NCBI GenBank assembly: GCA_016788425.1
Contig: JAEURQ010000002.1
Coordinates: forward strand, 620,001 to 684,000
DNA from: Chthonomonas sp.
Lineage (GTDB): Bacteria > Armatimonadota > Fimbriimonadia > Fimbriimonadales > Fimbriimonadaceae
Reading direction: 5' to 3'
DNA: 64,000 nucleotides
The notes beneath the pieces were generated by a model. It worked only from the letters and a program-made list of their open reading frames with translations. It had not been told where the DNA came from and did no database searches. The number at the start of each line of letters is the position of its first letter. Position 1 is the stretch's first letter. Position numbers and translations under genes: made by a program. Shown piece by piece: positions 12,802-18,509 of this stretch.

Positions 12802-13242
12802 ATGAGCATAGCCATCGACAACCTTCAATCTGCCTTTGCCCACGCCGAATCGATTCGACCGAAAGTTGGCGGGTTTCCCTATCTTGCCGAGGTCTTGCGC
12901 CAGGCGGGGGTGAGGCGAAACTTCTGGTACCTGCCTTCGTGCCAAAGCACCTTCATCACGAGAGGGGGCGCGGTCACGATCCAAGGGGAGCCGTTGGTGC
13001 AGGGCATGGTGGAGGTTCCCGACTTCGATCAGACGGCGCTCATTCGGGCTCTGCGCGCCGACCAGGCGGGCGAAACCACGTTCCCGGAATTCTTACTCGC
13101 GAGTTGGCAGGCGGGGGTGGTCCACTACGATGTGGATTTCGAGGCCCGGACCGTTTCTTACTATGGAGTGGACGGCGAAGTTTACGTGGAAGAGTATCCG
13201 GAGGTCCGCCTGACCCACGCTCAACTTGAGATAAGAACGTAG
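12802..13242 (+). CDS. DUF1398-like small protein
   Basis: A 146-residue protein with the pattern of the DUF1398/YbcV group. It has an N-terminal helix with F-P-Y-L-A-E-V-L-R-Q-A-G-V, a beta core with G-E-P-L-V-Q-G, and the late motif F-L-L-A-S-W-Q-A-G-V-V-H-Y-D-V-D-F, then Y-Y-G-V-D-G-E-x-Y-x-E-E-Y. The function of the group is unknown, although some members are encoded on phages. A TATACT at 12783-12788 lies 13 bases before the ATG. No SD sequence is present. Confidence 0.65.
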   Translation: MSIAIDNLQSAFAHAESIRPKVGGFPYLAEVLRQAGVRRNFWYLPSCQSTFITRGGAVTIQGEPLVQGMVEVPDFDQTALIRALRADQAGETTFPEFLLASWQAGVVHYDVDFEARTVSYYGVDGEVYVEEYPEVRLTHAQLEIRT

Positions 13243-13317
13243 CCCCCGGCGCCGCGACCTGAGAAACTGAGCAGTCGCCAGTCTCGCGAGCGTTCAGACC
13301 TCACTGCAGAGTCGGCT

Positions 13318-13489: not shown

Positions 13490-14332
13490 TTAATGCAATC
13501 GAGGGTCGAAGTTGACTTCTTGCAGGCTTTTCATGCTCTTCCGCCACAGTTCCTCAAACCCCCGGGAAAGCGGTTCTGCCAACACCCTCGATTTCATCAT
13601 CACTGATCCGAAGCGGCGGTCCGCCAAGAAGGGGTTGTCGAGGCTAAGAATCACCGTCTCACCATCAATCACATGAAACGGGTGCCCGAGGAGACCAGCA
13701 TAGCGAACGCCCGTCGTCGAGCGGAGTTCGGCTCGATATTGCTTCAAAAACTTGATCAGCTCATTGGCATCGCGCGGGCCGAAACCAAACACAATTCGGT
13801 GCTCAATAGAGCAAGCTTCCAGGTTTTTCCTCACGGACTTCAAGATGTTCAACCCCCTTGAATCCGACTTTCGTATTGCTTCGATATCAGGCAGTTCCAT
13901 GTACGAAATGATCTCCGAAGACGCCGAGGCCAGGAGCGATAGATGGCGCTGCACGTGTTGCTGCGCGCCCAAGGCAACCTCAGCAAATGCAGAGGCGGGC
14001 TGATTTTCGCCCTGGGCTGCCTTAATCATGTCTACTAGCGTTTGTGACTGGGAGGCTACAGAATCTGCTTGTTCGCGGGCTATTTCGGAGATCTTAGCGA
14101 CTGCTTCTTCCACGGAGAGTGCGGCAAACTGCCTCGGGCGAGAACGCTGAATCGTGATCAGGCCGAGCTTGGCAAGTTTCTCCGTTGCAGAGTAGATCTT
14201 TGAGCTCGGCACCGCCCCTTCTTCGCAGAGAGTCGCGGCATCTGCGATTCCGCGCTTAAGAAGCGCAACAAATGTTTGACGCTCGTACTGCGTCAACCCT
14301 ATCCGTTCAAGCAATTCAAAATCTTTCGGCAA
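13490..14332 (-). CDS. TrmB-type transcriptional regulator
   Basis: A 280-residue protein. Residues about 5-80 form a winged helix like that of TrmB regulators (E-R-I-G-L-T-Q-Y-E-R-Q-T-F-V-A-L, then V-P-S-S-K-I-Y, then P-R-Q-F-A-A). A coiled-coil-like linker follows, and then a C-terminal phospholipase-D-like ligand domain with no obvious catalytic HKD. TrmB proteins usually sense sugars or other small molecules. The TTG start has a good SD (AAGGAG) four bases upstream. The gene faces the DinB/VOC/TfoX-N operon, and a perfect palindrome lies right at its start, so it probably controls both directions. Lower G+C than the surroundings suggests acquisition. Confidence 0.75.
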   Translation of the reverse strand: MPKDFELLERIGLTQYERQTFVALLKRGIADAATLCEEGAVPSSKIYSATEKLAKLGLITIQRSRPRQFAALSVEEAVAKISEIAREQADSVASQSQTLVDMIKAAQGENQPASAFAEVALGAQQHVQRHLSLLASASSEIISYMELPDIEAIRKSDSRGLNILKSVRKNLEACSIEHRIVFGFGPRDANELIKFLKQYRAELRSTTGVRYAGLLGHPFHVIDGETVILSLDNPFLADRRFGSVMMKSRVLAEPLSRGFEELWRKSMKSLQEVNFDPRLH

Positions 14333-14350
14333 ACTACTCCTTGTAGTAGT
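14333..14350. promoter_or_regulatory. Palindromic operator candidate between the TrmB-type gene and the DinB operon
   Basis: ACTACT (14333-14338) and AGTAGT (14345-14350) form a perfect inverted repeat with a six-base spacer. It covers the SD region of the regulator gene and sits about 25 bases upstream of the plus-strand -10 (TAATAT, 14376-14381). This is a natural site for autoregulation and for control of the divergent operon. Confidence 0.5.
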
Positions 14351-14388
14351 AGATTGTGATGTACTTCCACTGCGATAATATTGGAGTC

Positions 14389-14883
14389 ATGAATAATCAA
14401 GCATTTGATCCAAGAAAAGACGTAGTTGAGCGACTTGCATTTGCCCGTCAGTTGTTCGGAGCGGACATCCATGCCATGAGCAGTGATGATCTTGCCGCCA
14501 CCTGTGGCGGGCAATCCCGCTGTGGCTACGACTTCATTTTTGAAATGGTCGGCTTCTTCGACACATTCGGTGGCTTACTTAAGAACGGACCCTCCGACAT
14601 CGAAGGGCCGCAAGGCGGTTGGGTTCGCGCACCCAAGGAGTTCTGCGACAAGGCTTCGGCAGTCGCAGCAATGAACGCTTCCGCCGACAATTTTACTGAG
14701 GCTATCCTGGCCTACACAGGCGATTTCGTTGCGGATGTCTTCCCCTCGCCGGTCGGCCCATTCACTCCTCTTGGAATGGCAAACCTGGCAGTCTGGCATA
14801 CGATGTACCATTCAGGACAGCTCAACTACATCCAGACGGTCCGCGGCGACGTTGCTTTCAACTGGATTCCGGGGGATAACTAA
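14389..14883 (+). CDS. DinB-fold protein
   Basis: A 164-residue protein of the DinB/YfiT four-helix bundle superfamily. Members bind a metal through three His, and several act with low-molecular-weight thiols. The C-terminal H-T-M-Y-H-S-G-Q-L-N-Y pattern supplies two metal ligands of the H-x3-H-x-G-Q type. The start was placed at ATG 14389 because a TAATAT lies seven bases before it; the longer frame from 14356 would run through this promoter. It is the first gene of a three-gene cluster, with gaps of 3 and 2 bases to the next genes. Confidence 0.75.
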   Translation: MNNQAFDPRKDVVERLAFARQLFGADIHAMSSDDLAATCGGQSRCGYDFIFEMVGFFDTFGGLLKNGPSDIEGPQGGWVRAPKEFCDKASAVAAMNASADNFTEAILAYTGDFVADVFPSPVGPFTPLGMANLAVWHTMYHSGQLNYIQTVRGDVAFNWIPGDN

Positions 14884-14886
14884 GGC

Positions 14887-15282
14887 ATGCAAGCCTCCGT
14901 GATGCCCATCGTTTCAGTGAAGTCGGTGGACGACACCCGGAATTTCTATGTGGACAAGCTCGGTTTCGATCACCTTATGGCAGTTGTAGGGAACGACGGT
15001 CTTTTGGAGTTCTGTACAGTTTTACGAGAAGGCGGTCGACTGATGTTCAACCGTGCAACTACGGAGCAGAGCGGTATGCCTGCAACGCAGTTCTATTTTC
15101 AAGTGTCCGACGTCGGGGCCTATCGCGATGAACTCGTCTCTTCGGGACTGAATCCCTCGCCGCTCGAAGACATGTGGTGGGGTGATCGAGTGACGATCGT
15201 CGAGGACAACAACAATCTCAAACTCTGGTTCTATCAACAAGTCGGCGAAGTCAAGCCTCCGGAGGGCATGAAGATCGTCTAG
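14887..15282 (+). CDS. VOC (glyoxalase/bleomycin-resistance fold) protein
   Basis: A 131-residue single-module VOC protein. It opens with P-I-V-S-V-K-S-V-D-D-T-R-N-F-Y-V-D-K-L-G-F, the typical first beta-alpha unit, and has a second unit starting T-Q-F-Y-F-Q-V-S-D-V. Metal-ligand positions are hard to assign; a Glu near residue 40 and a Glu near residue 105 are candidates. It could be a small-molecule-binding or antibiotic-sequestering protein or a thiol-transferase-like enzyme. It begins 3 bases after the DinB gene and ends 2 bases before the TfoX-N gene, so one mRNA is very likely. Confidence 0.8.
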   Translation: MQASVMPIVSVKSVDDTRNFYVDKLGFDHLMAVVGNDGLLEFCTVLREGGRLMFNRATTEQSGMPATQFYFQVSDVGAYRDELVSSGLNPSPLEDMWWGDRVTIVEDNNNLKLWFYQQVGEVKPPEGMKIV

Positions 15283-15284
15283 CA

Positions 15285-15659
15285 ATGCCTTACAACACCG
15301 ACCTCGCTGATCGCCTTCGCCAAGTTCTTCAGCACCTTAATCTTAAGGCGGGAGAAGTACTTGGCGAGACTAAGATGTTTGGCGGACTTTGCTTCACGCT
15401 CAATGGAAAAATGCTCGTTGGCATCGACAAGGATCGACTCGTGGTGAGGTTAGGTGACGAAGACTTCGCGCGTGAGTCGCAGGCAGGTCGAGCGTTGCCG
15501 ATGGATTTGACGGGCCGACCACTCAGGAACTTTGCGTTTCTTTGTGAAGGCAGTTTCGAAACGGAAGCTGATGTCCTTAACTGGGCAGAAATGAGCGCGA
15601 GGTTTGTCCGCGAACACATGCTGAACAAATCAGCGAAGCAAGGTCGGAAGCGAAGGTAG
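15285..15659 (+). CDS. TfoX N-terminal domain protein
   Basis: A 124-residue protein matching the N-terminal domain of TfoX: T-K-M-F-G-G-L-C-F-T-L-N-G-K-M-L-V-G near the start, then R-L-V-V-R-L-G, and a closing D-V-L-N-W-A helix. Full TfoX controls natural competence in some Proteobacteria. Free-standing N-domains are widespread and of unknown function, and are often encoded beside DinB and VOC proteins as here. The basic tail (Lys/Arg rich) might bind nucleic acid. Confidence 0.85.
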   Translation: MPYNTDLADRLRQVLQHLNLKAGEVLGETKMFGGLCFTLNGKMLVGIDKDRLVVRLGDEDFARESQAGRALPMDLTGRPLRNFAFLCEGSFETEADVLNWAEMSARFVREHMLNKSAKQGRKRR

Positions 15660-15734
15660 ACCCCGGCGTGGACGGCGTTACGAGGAAGAATATCCGTGTT
15701 CTCGCTTGAGAGACGGTGAAGTTAAGCCCGGCGC

Positions 15735-17149: not shown

Positions 17150-17914
17150 TCATAAGCTCTCAAAGCTGTGGCCGCCTTCCCAAGTGCCCGAGGAGCGCTC
17201 CACGCTGCACCGGGCGAAGGAACTCCGGGGGTTCCCGAATCCACCGTCGCGGTGACGTTGCAACATGTCGCGGTGTACGCCGGGGCCGTACATCGCGTCG
17301 CGCATTTCGGCAAAGCTATTCCAGATGGTCACGGTGAGGCCATCAAACTCGCCGCCATCCAAGAAAAAGGTCTGCTGAGAGAGGAGTCCGGCCGTGGACG
17401 ACATGGACATGCGGACGGCGCTGACGCCCTCGCCAAAGGCCGCGGCCGCCTTTTGCCAACCCTCAATCCGATCGAAACCGACGGTGATGAGCACTACGAA
17501 TCTGCCCGGGGGCACGCCCTCGGCCGAGCAGTTGTAGATGAGTCCGGGATTCTCGGGGGCAAGGTAGTTGACTTCGCCGATGTGCCTTGTCGGGAGCAGC
17601 ACTAAGCTGAAGGTTTCCTTGGCCGACTGCGTCCAGGGGCAAATCTCGGCGTGACGCTGATGCATCTCTGCGGCAGAATCCAGCGAATCGTGGAGGCCGA
17701 AGATCGCGAACGTGTAGCCGCTGCGCTCGCTCACCGGCGTGCTAGCGGCGCGCCCGTCGGCGCCGATCGCGCGAAACAGCGTTCCCGCAGGCGGCGGCCC
17801 CGCCCATTCGCCGGCAACCTGAACCGTGTCGAACCGAACCAGGGTCAACGAAACGTGCGTGGCAAGCATGTCCAAAGGTACCTGATCACCCTTGTCGGCT
17901 TTGCCAATTACCAA
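17150..17914 (-). CDS. Protein resembling spheroidene monooxygenase (CrtA-like)
   Basis: A 254-residue protein that seems to hold two ferredoxin-like (antibiotic-monooxygenase-type) units, about residues 20-110 and 130-240. The order of motifs (F-A-I-F-G-L-H, then W-T-Q-S-A-K-E-T-F, then F-V-V-L-I-T-V-G-F, then Q-Q-T-F-F-L-D-G, then T-V-T-I-W-N-S-F-A-E-M) is like that of CrtA-type proteins, which oxidise carotenoids. No carotenoid gene is nearby, so the assignment is loose. The TTG start at 17914 overlaps the stop of the DinB gene; an ATG at 17869 is a good alternative start. Confidence 0.45.
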   Translation of the reverse strand: MVIGKADKGDQVPLDMLATHVSLTLVRFDTVQVAGEWAGPPPAGTLFRAIGADGRAASTPVSERSGYTFAIFGLHDSLDSAAEMHQRHAEICPWTQSAKETFSLVLLPTRHIGEVNYLAPENPGLIYNCSAEGVPPGRFVVLITVGFDRIEGWQKAAAAFGEGVSAVRMSMSSTAGLLSQQTFFLDGGEFDGLTVTIWNSFAEMRDAMYGPGVHRDMLQRHRDGGFGNPRSSFARCSVERSSGTWEGGHSFESL

Positions 17915-18435
17915 GAAGGGAAGTCCTTACAATACGTCTCCCACAAGTCGCCCTCGGGCGCGGGGGGCGTTGAGGAGGGAGCGAGGATGGAGCGCTGAAG
18001 TTGAATCTGCCCGGCGTGATAATGGTCGTGATTTGTCACGGTGGCGATGAGCTTCCAGGCCGGCACCAATGAGCCGTCAAACCGCAGGTGATCGGCTTCA
18101 AAGTCCTCAACATCCGCCCACGAACTCATCCAGTAGGTGTGCGCCTCGTGTAGCCAACCCACCACGGCTTCGAGGTTCGGCCACAGGGAGTCGACCTTGG
18201 GAGAGAGTTCGCGCCATCGCACCTCGGTGTTGCGGAAGGCGACGCTGCCATAGATGATTTTGCCGTTGGCGACGTGGGCAATCTGGCTCAGAATCGAGCC
18301 CTCGGAGTGGAGGTACTGTTCCGGTTGCAACTCCACCGCGGCCCAGGCCAGGGGTTCGCTCAATCCCTCGATAGATTCCAGAAACGTGGACCAGGCCAGG
18401 TTGGCCAGTTCAATCAAGTGAGCGCGGTCGGTCAT
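17908..18435 (-). CDS. DinB-fold protein
   Basis: A 175-residue helical protein ending with N-H-D-H-Y-H-A-G-Q-I-Q, the metal-binding motif of the DinB superfamily. An earlier His (Q-I-A-H-V-A-N) is the likely third ligand. The frame could open at 18624, but a minus-strand TAAGAT lies seven bases before ATG 18435 and the DinB fold begins there. It overlaps the downstream CrtA-like gene by 7 bases. Substrate unknown; it is one of five DinB proteins in the window. Confidence 0.82.
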   Translation of the reverse strand: MTDRAHLIELANLAWSTFLESIEGLSEPLAWAAVELQPEQYLHSEGSILSQIAHVANGKIIYGSVAFRNTEVRWRELSPKVDSLWPNLEAVVGWLHEAHTYWMSSWADVEDFEADHLRFDGSLVPAWKLIATVTNHDHYHAGQIQLQRSILAPSSTPPAPEGDLWETYCKDFPSW

Positions 18436-18509
18436 GTTGGTTATCTTACAACGAAGCGAAGAACTGAATCTGCGTTGCCAATTGCGCGTCTTAGGCTCAT
18501 AATCAGGAT

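Follow-up and report, generated by a model that had tools for sequence, protein, structure and literature searches.

In M. smegmatis, the regulator SiwR is encoded divergently from a DinB_2 operon (dinS) and binds a 19-bp imperfect palindrome, as demonstrated by electrophoretic mobility shift assay; in the accessible part of that report it is described as an activator responding to H2O2 or zeocin, under genotoxic stress (PMC10693628). The archaeal TrmB regulators, according to the available text of a second study, recognize sites of the form TACT-N3-AGTA or TACT-N7-8-GAGTA, autoregulation being reported or proposed for some of them, and the family includes both activators and repressors (PMC4158304). 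OxsR, a TrmB-domain protein, is described in the available part of a third report as sensing oxidants through one cysteine (PMC9426492). Here we analyze a locus of Chthonomonas sp. (contig JAEURQ010000002.1), located at positions 13490–15659 of a 64,000-nucleotide stretch that we call the window, in which a gene for a TrmB-type regulator diverges from an operon encoding a DinB_2 superfamily protein, a VOC protein, and a TfoX_N protein. We consider it likely, on balance, that this locus is a self-regulated and probably mobile accessory cassette with a TrmB-type local regulator. Its features are the following.

13490–14332, minus strand: TrmB-type transcription regulator, 280 amino acids, TTG start, with a winged helix-turn-helix (HTH) at residues 8–75 and a DUF7436-matching C-terminal domain at residues 119–266
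14333–14350: perfect palindrome ACTACT-N6-AGTAGT, exact, in a register overlapping the predicted operator
14334–14352: predicted operator, a 19-bp imperfect palindrome CTACTCC-TTGTA-GTAGTAG, ungapped and conserved in four of four cassettes
14339–14344, minus strand: probable Shine-Dalgarno sequence AAGGAG of the regulator gene, inside the operator, read by eye
14376–14381, plus strand: TAATAT, a possible but weak −10-like element of the operon, located 23 bases past the operator, read by eye
14383–14386, plus strand: probable Shine-Dalgarno sequence GGAG of the DinB gene, read by eye
14389–14883, plus strand: DinB_2 superfamily four-helix protein, 164 amino acids (Pfam, AlphaFold2 model, and fold match to DR0053)
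14887–15282, plus strand: VOC/glyoxalase-fold protein, 131 amino acids (Pfam PF00903)
15285–15659, plus strand: stand-alone TfoX_N domain protein, 124 amino acids (Pfam PF04993)

The genes, strands, coordinates, and divergence over about 60 bases had been described correctly in an earlier note on this DNA. Counted to the ATG at 14389, which lies behind the GGAG and is most likely the DinB start, the intergenic gap is 56 bp, and the gaps inside the operon, put at two to three bases, measure 3 and 2. All Pfam matches of the cassette proteins exceed the curated cut-offs: TrmB PF01978 (E 1.3e-14; 54.2 bits for a cut-off of 25.6, residues 8–75) and DUF7436 (E 1.3e-9) for the regulator, DinB_2 PF12867 (E 1e-6; 29.6 bits for a cut-off of 24.8), Glyoxalase PF00903 for the VOC protein (E 3.5e-9), and TfoX_N PF04993 (E 1.2e-9).

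Conservation of the predicted operator

Relatives of the cassette genes were sought in 201 genomes, namely the Chthonomonas genome itself (G000) and 200 relatives, of which G001–G084 belong to the same family. The divergent TrmB/DinB-VOC-TfoX_N unit was found in G000, G016, G082, and G017, that is, in 3 of the 84 other family genomes, whose full-length regulators are 73% (G016), 63% (G082), and 50% (G017) identical to that of the window. Weaker regulator matches, at 27–29% identity, occur in five further genomes, all outside the family. The suggestion of a self-contained unit with a dedicated regulator is borne out by the same four-gene order in the four carriers, and the site accompanies the unit in every one of them.

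The perfect palindrome reported for the gap is indeed there (ACTACTCCTTGTAGTAGT, 14333–14350). With up to two mismatches, it has three matches in the window, one of which overlaps the exact copy, versus 0.31 expected from shuffles; with up to one mismatch, it is found at a single place in the 2.67-Mb genome, versus 23 per strand for the letter-reversed control. The earlier note would have given up its reading if the palindrome were not conserved at orthologous regulator–operon pairs. A site is present in all four gaps, but the conserved register is 14334–14352, and the outer A (14333) of ACTACT-N6-AGTAGT varies among the relatives. Aligned without insertions or deletions, the four gaps share CTACT[CA]C-N5-GTAGT[AT]G followed by AnT. 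Fourteen columns of this 22-column block are identical in all four sequences, versus one of the other 36 columns compared (Fisher p 3.9e-7, the columns being treated as independent and the block having been picked after inspection), and the left columns of the comparison take in the first codons of the regulators. The left arm is the symmetric CTACTAC in G082 and CTACTCC in the window, and TACT-N9-AGTA is present in three of the four cassettes, the fourth having AGTT as its right arm.

At whole-genome scale, CTACTNCNNNNNGTAGTNG occurs at one place per genome, in the cassette gap, in each of the four carriers, and has zero matches in six cassette-less relatives (G001, G004, G018, G041, G060, and G075); its letter-reversed control gives 0 to 14 matches per genome. 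Since it is conserved in four of four cassettes and specific to them, both by direct computation, the neighboring register 14334–14352 is the likely operator. The pattern matches what is expected for the dedicated operator of a local regulator, and a dedicated regulator–operator pair, as predicted from these sequences, is in our judgment highly probable.

Three other descriptions of the site were discarded. The register ACTACT-N6-AGTAGT was dropped as the conserved operator because the ungapped alignment of the four gaps fits 14334–14352 instead, and a gapped CTACT-N9-AGTAG, with G017 shifted by 3 bases, because the ungapped alignment fits all four. The expression CTACT-N9-AGTAGWTT was too loose with up to two mismatches, giving 14–69 matches per genome, below the letter-reversed control in every genome; with zero mismatches it was found, among the matches listed, only at the cassette in G000, G016, and G082.

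Related palindromes stand before other TrmB-type regulator genes of the phylum. Among the best 30 TrmB-domain loci drawn from the 201 genomes, 12, including that of the window, show ACYAC-N2..7-GTRGT within the 150 bases that precede the HTH match (shuffled control: mean 0.04, maximum 2 in 200 shuffles), several of the 12 being close relatives and not independent; the carriers G082 and G017 fall outside these 30. None of the 18 loci lacking the motif was excluded from the count: 14 belong to a different TrmB subfamily within the window's own bacterial family, two (G261 and G219) are weak HTH matches, one (G169) has the degenerate CACCACTGATCAGGGGTGTC, and the carrier G016 fails the expression owing to its left arm CTACTCC. 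That 12 of the best 30 loci carry the palindrome makes the half-site look characteristic of a regulator group, and suggests that the archaeal TrmB half-site TACT/AGTA has a bacterial counterpart.

Ten of the 12 palindrome-bearing loci adjoin a gene whose product has the motif WAEMEMPVL of adenosylhomocysteinase, and Pfam AdoHcyase was confirmed in the four that were tested. At L015, L016, L017, L018, and L102–L107, a TrmB-type HTH regulator lies directly upstream of ahcY, behind ACYAC-N4-GTRGT. These loci suggest that a TrmB-type regulator controls S-adenosylhomocysteine turnover in some bacteria; the open-access literature searched yielded no paper on a TrmB regulon with adenosylhomocysteinase. 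The second TrmB subfamily of the window's family (GFTALESEIY type; L083–L097 minus L086) has no ACYAC palindrome, and TAGTAG was seen in the 90 bases before the HTH match at 7 of its 14 loci, by eye and without a control.

Distribution, flanks, and base composition

The three other carriers belong to three genera, none of them that of the window, and the cassette was not found in G001, the only further genome sampled from the genus of the window (87% complete). DinB relatives also occur in genomes without the regulator, at 70% (G004) and 39% (G018) identity, and CTACT-N3..12-AGTAG was not found at the DinB loci fetched from these two genomes. A wider species scan with the single regulator sequence gave no match. 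The same scan with the regulator alignment gave three loci, one on an uncultured Fimbriimonas contig and two in distant Thermoplasmata, the latter two with no TACT-N1..14-AGTA in the stretch before them. Because both scans are seeded with short peptides that must match exactly, they provide weak evidence for absence outside the family. On plasmids, the VOC protein had no match and the TfoX_N protein two distant ones.

The flanks of the cassettes differ. A DUF1398 gene and a nitroreductase gene flank it in the window, a sub-threshold DUF1801 match in G016, and a DUF2461 gene in G082; DUF1398 had no match in the seven other genomes tested. The G+C content had been described as lower than that of the surroundings, and it is 53.1% in 13490–15659 versus 60.2% across the remaining window, below that of every 2,170-bp stretch of the window sampled in 50-base steps. 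The patchy distribution, the differing flanks, and the low G+C in the window suggest lateral movement, and the cassette is probably mobile.

Several observations concern the neighborhood. The 3′ end of the left DUF1398 gene (13165–13251) is echoed right of the cassette (15652–15696), with 29 matching bases in a stretch of 36 (E 5e-5) and 15 in one of 17 (E 0.09); this echo is perhaps an insertion scar or the remnant of a second DUF1398 gene. DUF2461 genes adjoin TfoX_N genes both at the G082 cassette (L012:11870–12484) and in G075, which has no cassette (L051:878–1501). A second DinB-like protein, with a sub-threshold DinB_2 match (19.8 vs. 24.8 bits), is encoded on the minus strand (17908–18441), some 2.2 kb to the right of the cassette.

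The encoded proteins and the proposed mechanism

The earlier note called the DinB protein thiol-enzyme-like, and of this the fold stands. The AlphaFold2 model (mean predicted local distance difference test score, pLDDT, 89.7) clearly has the DinB four-helix fold, as computed by structural comparison: the closest fold is DR0053 (6iz2; Z 17.0, root-mean-square deviation 2.2, 143 residues aligned), followed by ClbS (6anr, Z 15.2), mycothiol S-transferase (8f5v, Z 12.8), and BstA (5wk0, Z 11.4); the tool cautions that helical bundles can give unspecific Z values under about 13. H137 and H141 are conserved in 23 of 23 sequences, as are D48 and E52 in helix 2. The BstA-type triad of Bacillus subtilis BstA, in the available text, consists of H67, H160, and H164 (PMC5815605). 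Weak profile alignments place E52 on a Glu of DR0053 (E 0.1) and of BH3987 (E 0.55), and none of the solved structures matched the five-sequence DinB profile. Bacillithiol-dependent thiol transfer was disfavored as BshC was not found in 8 of 8 genomes.

The best solved relative of the VOC protein is 4hc5, a glyoxalase/bleomycin-resistance-like protein without assigned role, followed by 'Protein tioX' (3itw, E 8.8e-5) and, weakly, a zorbamycin-binding protein (5cj3, E 0.051). TioX is a thiocoraline-binding protein. G017 encodes a second VOC protein, 30% identical, outside its cassette. The 124-amino-acid TfoX_N protein contains TfoX_N only, with no match to the TfoX C-terminal domain at E up to 1, and has no meaningful solved relative by sequence (best E 0.9). 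For the regulator, the NCBIfam TrmB equivalogs are far under their cut-offs (best 44.6 of 650 bits), and no paper on DUF7436 was found in the open-access literature searched.

We infer that a dimer of the regulator binds the single 19-bp site CTACTMC-N5-GTAGTWG. The CTCCTT of the operator reads AAGGAG on the regulator strand, its probable ribosome-binding site, which may be the reason why the left arm is CTACTCC instead of the symmetric CTACTAC. The bound site would overlap this ribosome-binding site and abut the probable −35 of the divergent operon, so that one site could govern both regulator synthesis and the DinB-VOC-TfoX_N operon. Autorepression combined with repression of the operon fits, because the site overlaps the ribosome-binding site of the regulator and precedes the probable −35; both would be lifted once the C-terminal DUF7436 domain meets its signal. 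Repression by the TrmB-type regulator is in our estimate reasonably probable, and somewhat more likely than activation. The three proteins may jointly handle a toxic or reactive small molecule, a role suggested by analogy with the relatives ClbS, TioX, and the S-transferases: the DinB protein would chemically modify the compound, the VOC protein bind or modify it, and TfoX_N play an accessory role. We put forward detoxification tentatively, as a little less than an even prospect. In its most specific form, the proposal is that of a transferable chemical-defense cassette directed at one particular toxic metabolite, which the TrmB-type repressor would sense through its DUF7436 domain; a DinB enzyme whose site is acidic-His-His would modify the metabolite, the VOC protein would sequester it, and TfoX_N would assist in its clearance. 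This form is speculative and, taken as a whole, rather unlikely. It would, if true, assign functions to stand-alone TfoX_N and to DUF7436 and provide a TrmB-type regulator from bacteria whose operator and ligand are both defined.

A number of results weigh against the proposed cassette and its mechanism. There are only four cassettes in one family, so that the conservation partly reflects shared ancestry, and repeated loss, an alternative to lateral movement, is also compatible with the patchiness. In the three other carriers, the G+C of cassette and locus is 59.9/61.5, 54.0/55.9, and 53.4/54.6%, only 1–2 points lower in the cassette. Whether control is negative or positive is a guess, since no consensus promoter was found (zero promoter-like sites in the scan, shuffles predicting 1.3), and the closest precedent, SiwR, acts as an activator according to the accessible text. 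The structure model of the regulator is poor (pLDDT 58.5), and the protein does not match the TrmB sugar-binding domain PF11495 at E up to 1, DUF7436 being found instead. The DinB protein of the window has no His in helix 2 (46–66), where the first His of the metal site is expected, and BshC (PF10079) was found in none of eight genomes including G000, with positive controls in B. subtilis, Thermus, and Deinobacterium; other bsh genes were not searched. The NCBIfam bleomycin-binding (ble/BLMA) models are far under their cut-offs for the VOC protein (20.4 bits for a cut-off of 275 and 18.5 for one of 140), and no result points to a ligand or substrate.

These points leave room for other explanations. 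The regulator could be a SiwR-like activator and the operon a response to oxidative or genotoxic damage, not a resistance to a single compound. The matching layout of SiwR, which in the available text activates on H2O2 or zeocin (PMC10693628), and the presence of activators in the TrmB family (PMC4158304, in part) speak for it, as might oxidant sensing by a Cys in the accessible account of OxsR (PMC9426492), given that all four regulators have an invariant C36 in their HTH, a candidate counterpart of C24 of OxsR. The WYL domain has no match in the regulator at E up to 1, and the overlap of the site with the regulator's ribosome-binding site fits autorepression, so that we hold this activator to be fairly unlikely.

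Much the same holds for the explanation that the three operon genes are unrelated in role, co-located as accessory genes of an island and controlled by the regulator without a joint pathway; we regard it as improbable to a similar degree. DinB matches occur in 115 of 201 genomes, with the relatives in G004 and G018 outside any cassette, TfoX_N relatives occur in 15 of 201 genomes, with three in G016, and small accessory genes (DUF2461 and the sub-threshold DUF1801) adjoin the cassette in other carriers; against this, order, orientation, and site are shared by the four carriers despite differing flanks, and VOC relatives at E 1e-8 are confined to the four carriers (4 of 201 genomes). That the palindrome is a chance feature without a role might be argued from its shortness, its overlap with the ribosome-binding site, and an AGT repeat inside it, owing to which it reads as a palindrome in several registers. 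Its conservation in four of four gaps next to hardly conserved flanks, its single place per carrier, and its absence from the six non-carriers tested make this extremely improbable. We retain the self-regulated, probably mobile cassette as the likely explanation. Proteins of the DinB, VOC, and TfoX_N kinds occur widely, most of them with no clear role, and the cassette links all three to one switch; as the predicted 19-bp operator is testable, its inducer could be screened with a simple reporter.

Comparison with known systems

No paper in the open-access literature searched joins a TrmB-type regulator to DinB, VOC, and TfoX_N, and those naming two of these three protein families appeared unrelated, to judge by their titles and opening abstract lines. 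The four-helix fold is shared with the DinB/YfiT S-transferase-like superfamily (DR0053, ClbS, BstA, and mycothiol S-transferase), and H137/H141 are kept; unlike BstA, the cassette protein has D48/E52 in helix 2 instead of a third His. The likeness to the drug-binding VOC proteins (TioX and the zorbamycin-binding protein) consists of weak profile matches, and the cassette VOC protein lies far under the NCBIfam bleomycin or zorbamycin cut-offs.

With the archaeal TrmB proteins, as described in the available text (PMC4158304), the regulator shares the PF01978 winged HTH and the TACT/AGTA half-sites, TACT-N9-AGTA of the window being within the spacing range of Halobacterium TACT-N7-8-GAGTA. It differs in that the window site lacks the G preceding AGTA in Halobacterium, that the cassette has neither a match to the TrmB sugar-binding domain nor sugar genes in its operon, and that one site per carrier genome argues for a local and not a global regulon.

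SiwR is a close architectural precedent, and the nearest one, as far as the accessible text of that report goes (PMC10693628). Both loci have a dedicated regulator divergent from an operon whose first gene is DinB_2, a gap of roughly 60 bp, and a 19-bp imperfect palindrome, and a glyoxalase-like gene accompanies the locus in some Actinobacteria. SiwR is a WYL-domain activator, whereas the cassette regulator combines a TrmB-type HTH with DUF7436; the second gene in M. smegmatis encodes DUF664 and not VOC, and TfoX_N goes unmentioned in the part of the report available. The cassette is of a known kind, a small accessory operon with a dedicated divergent regulator.

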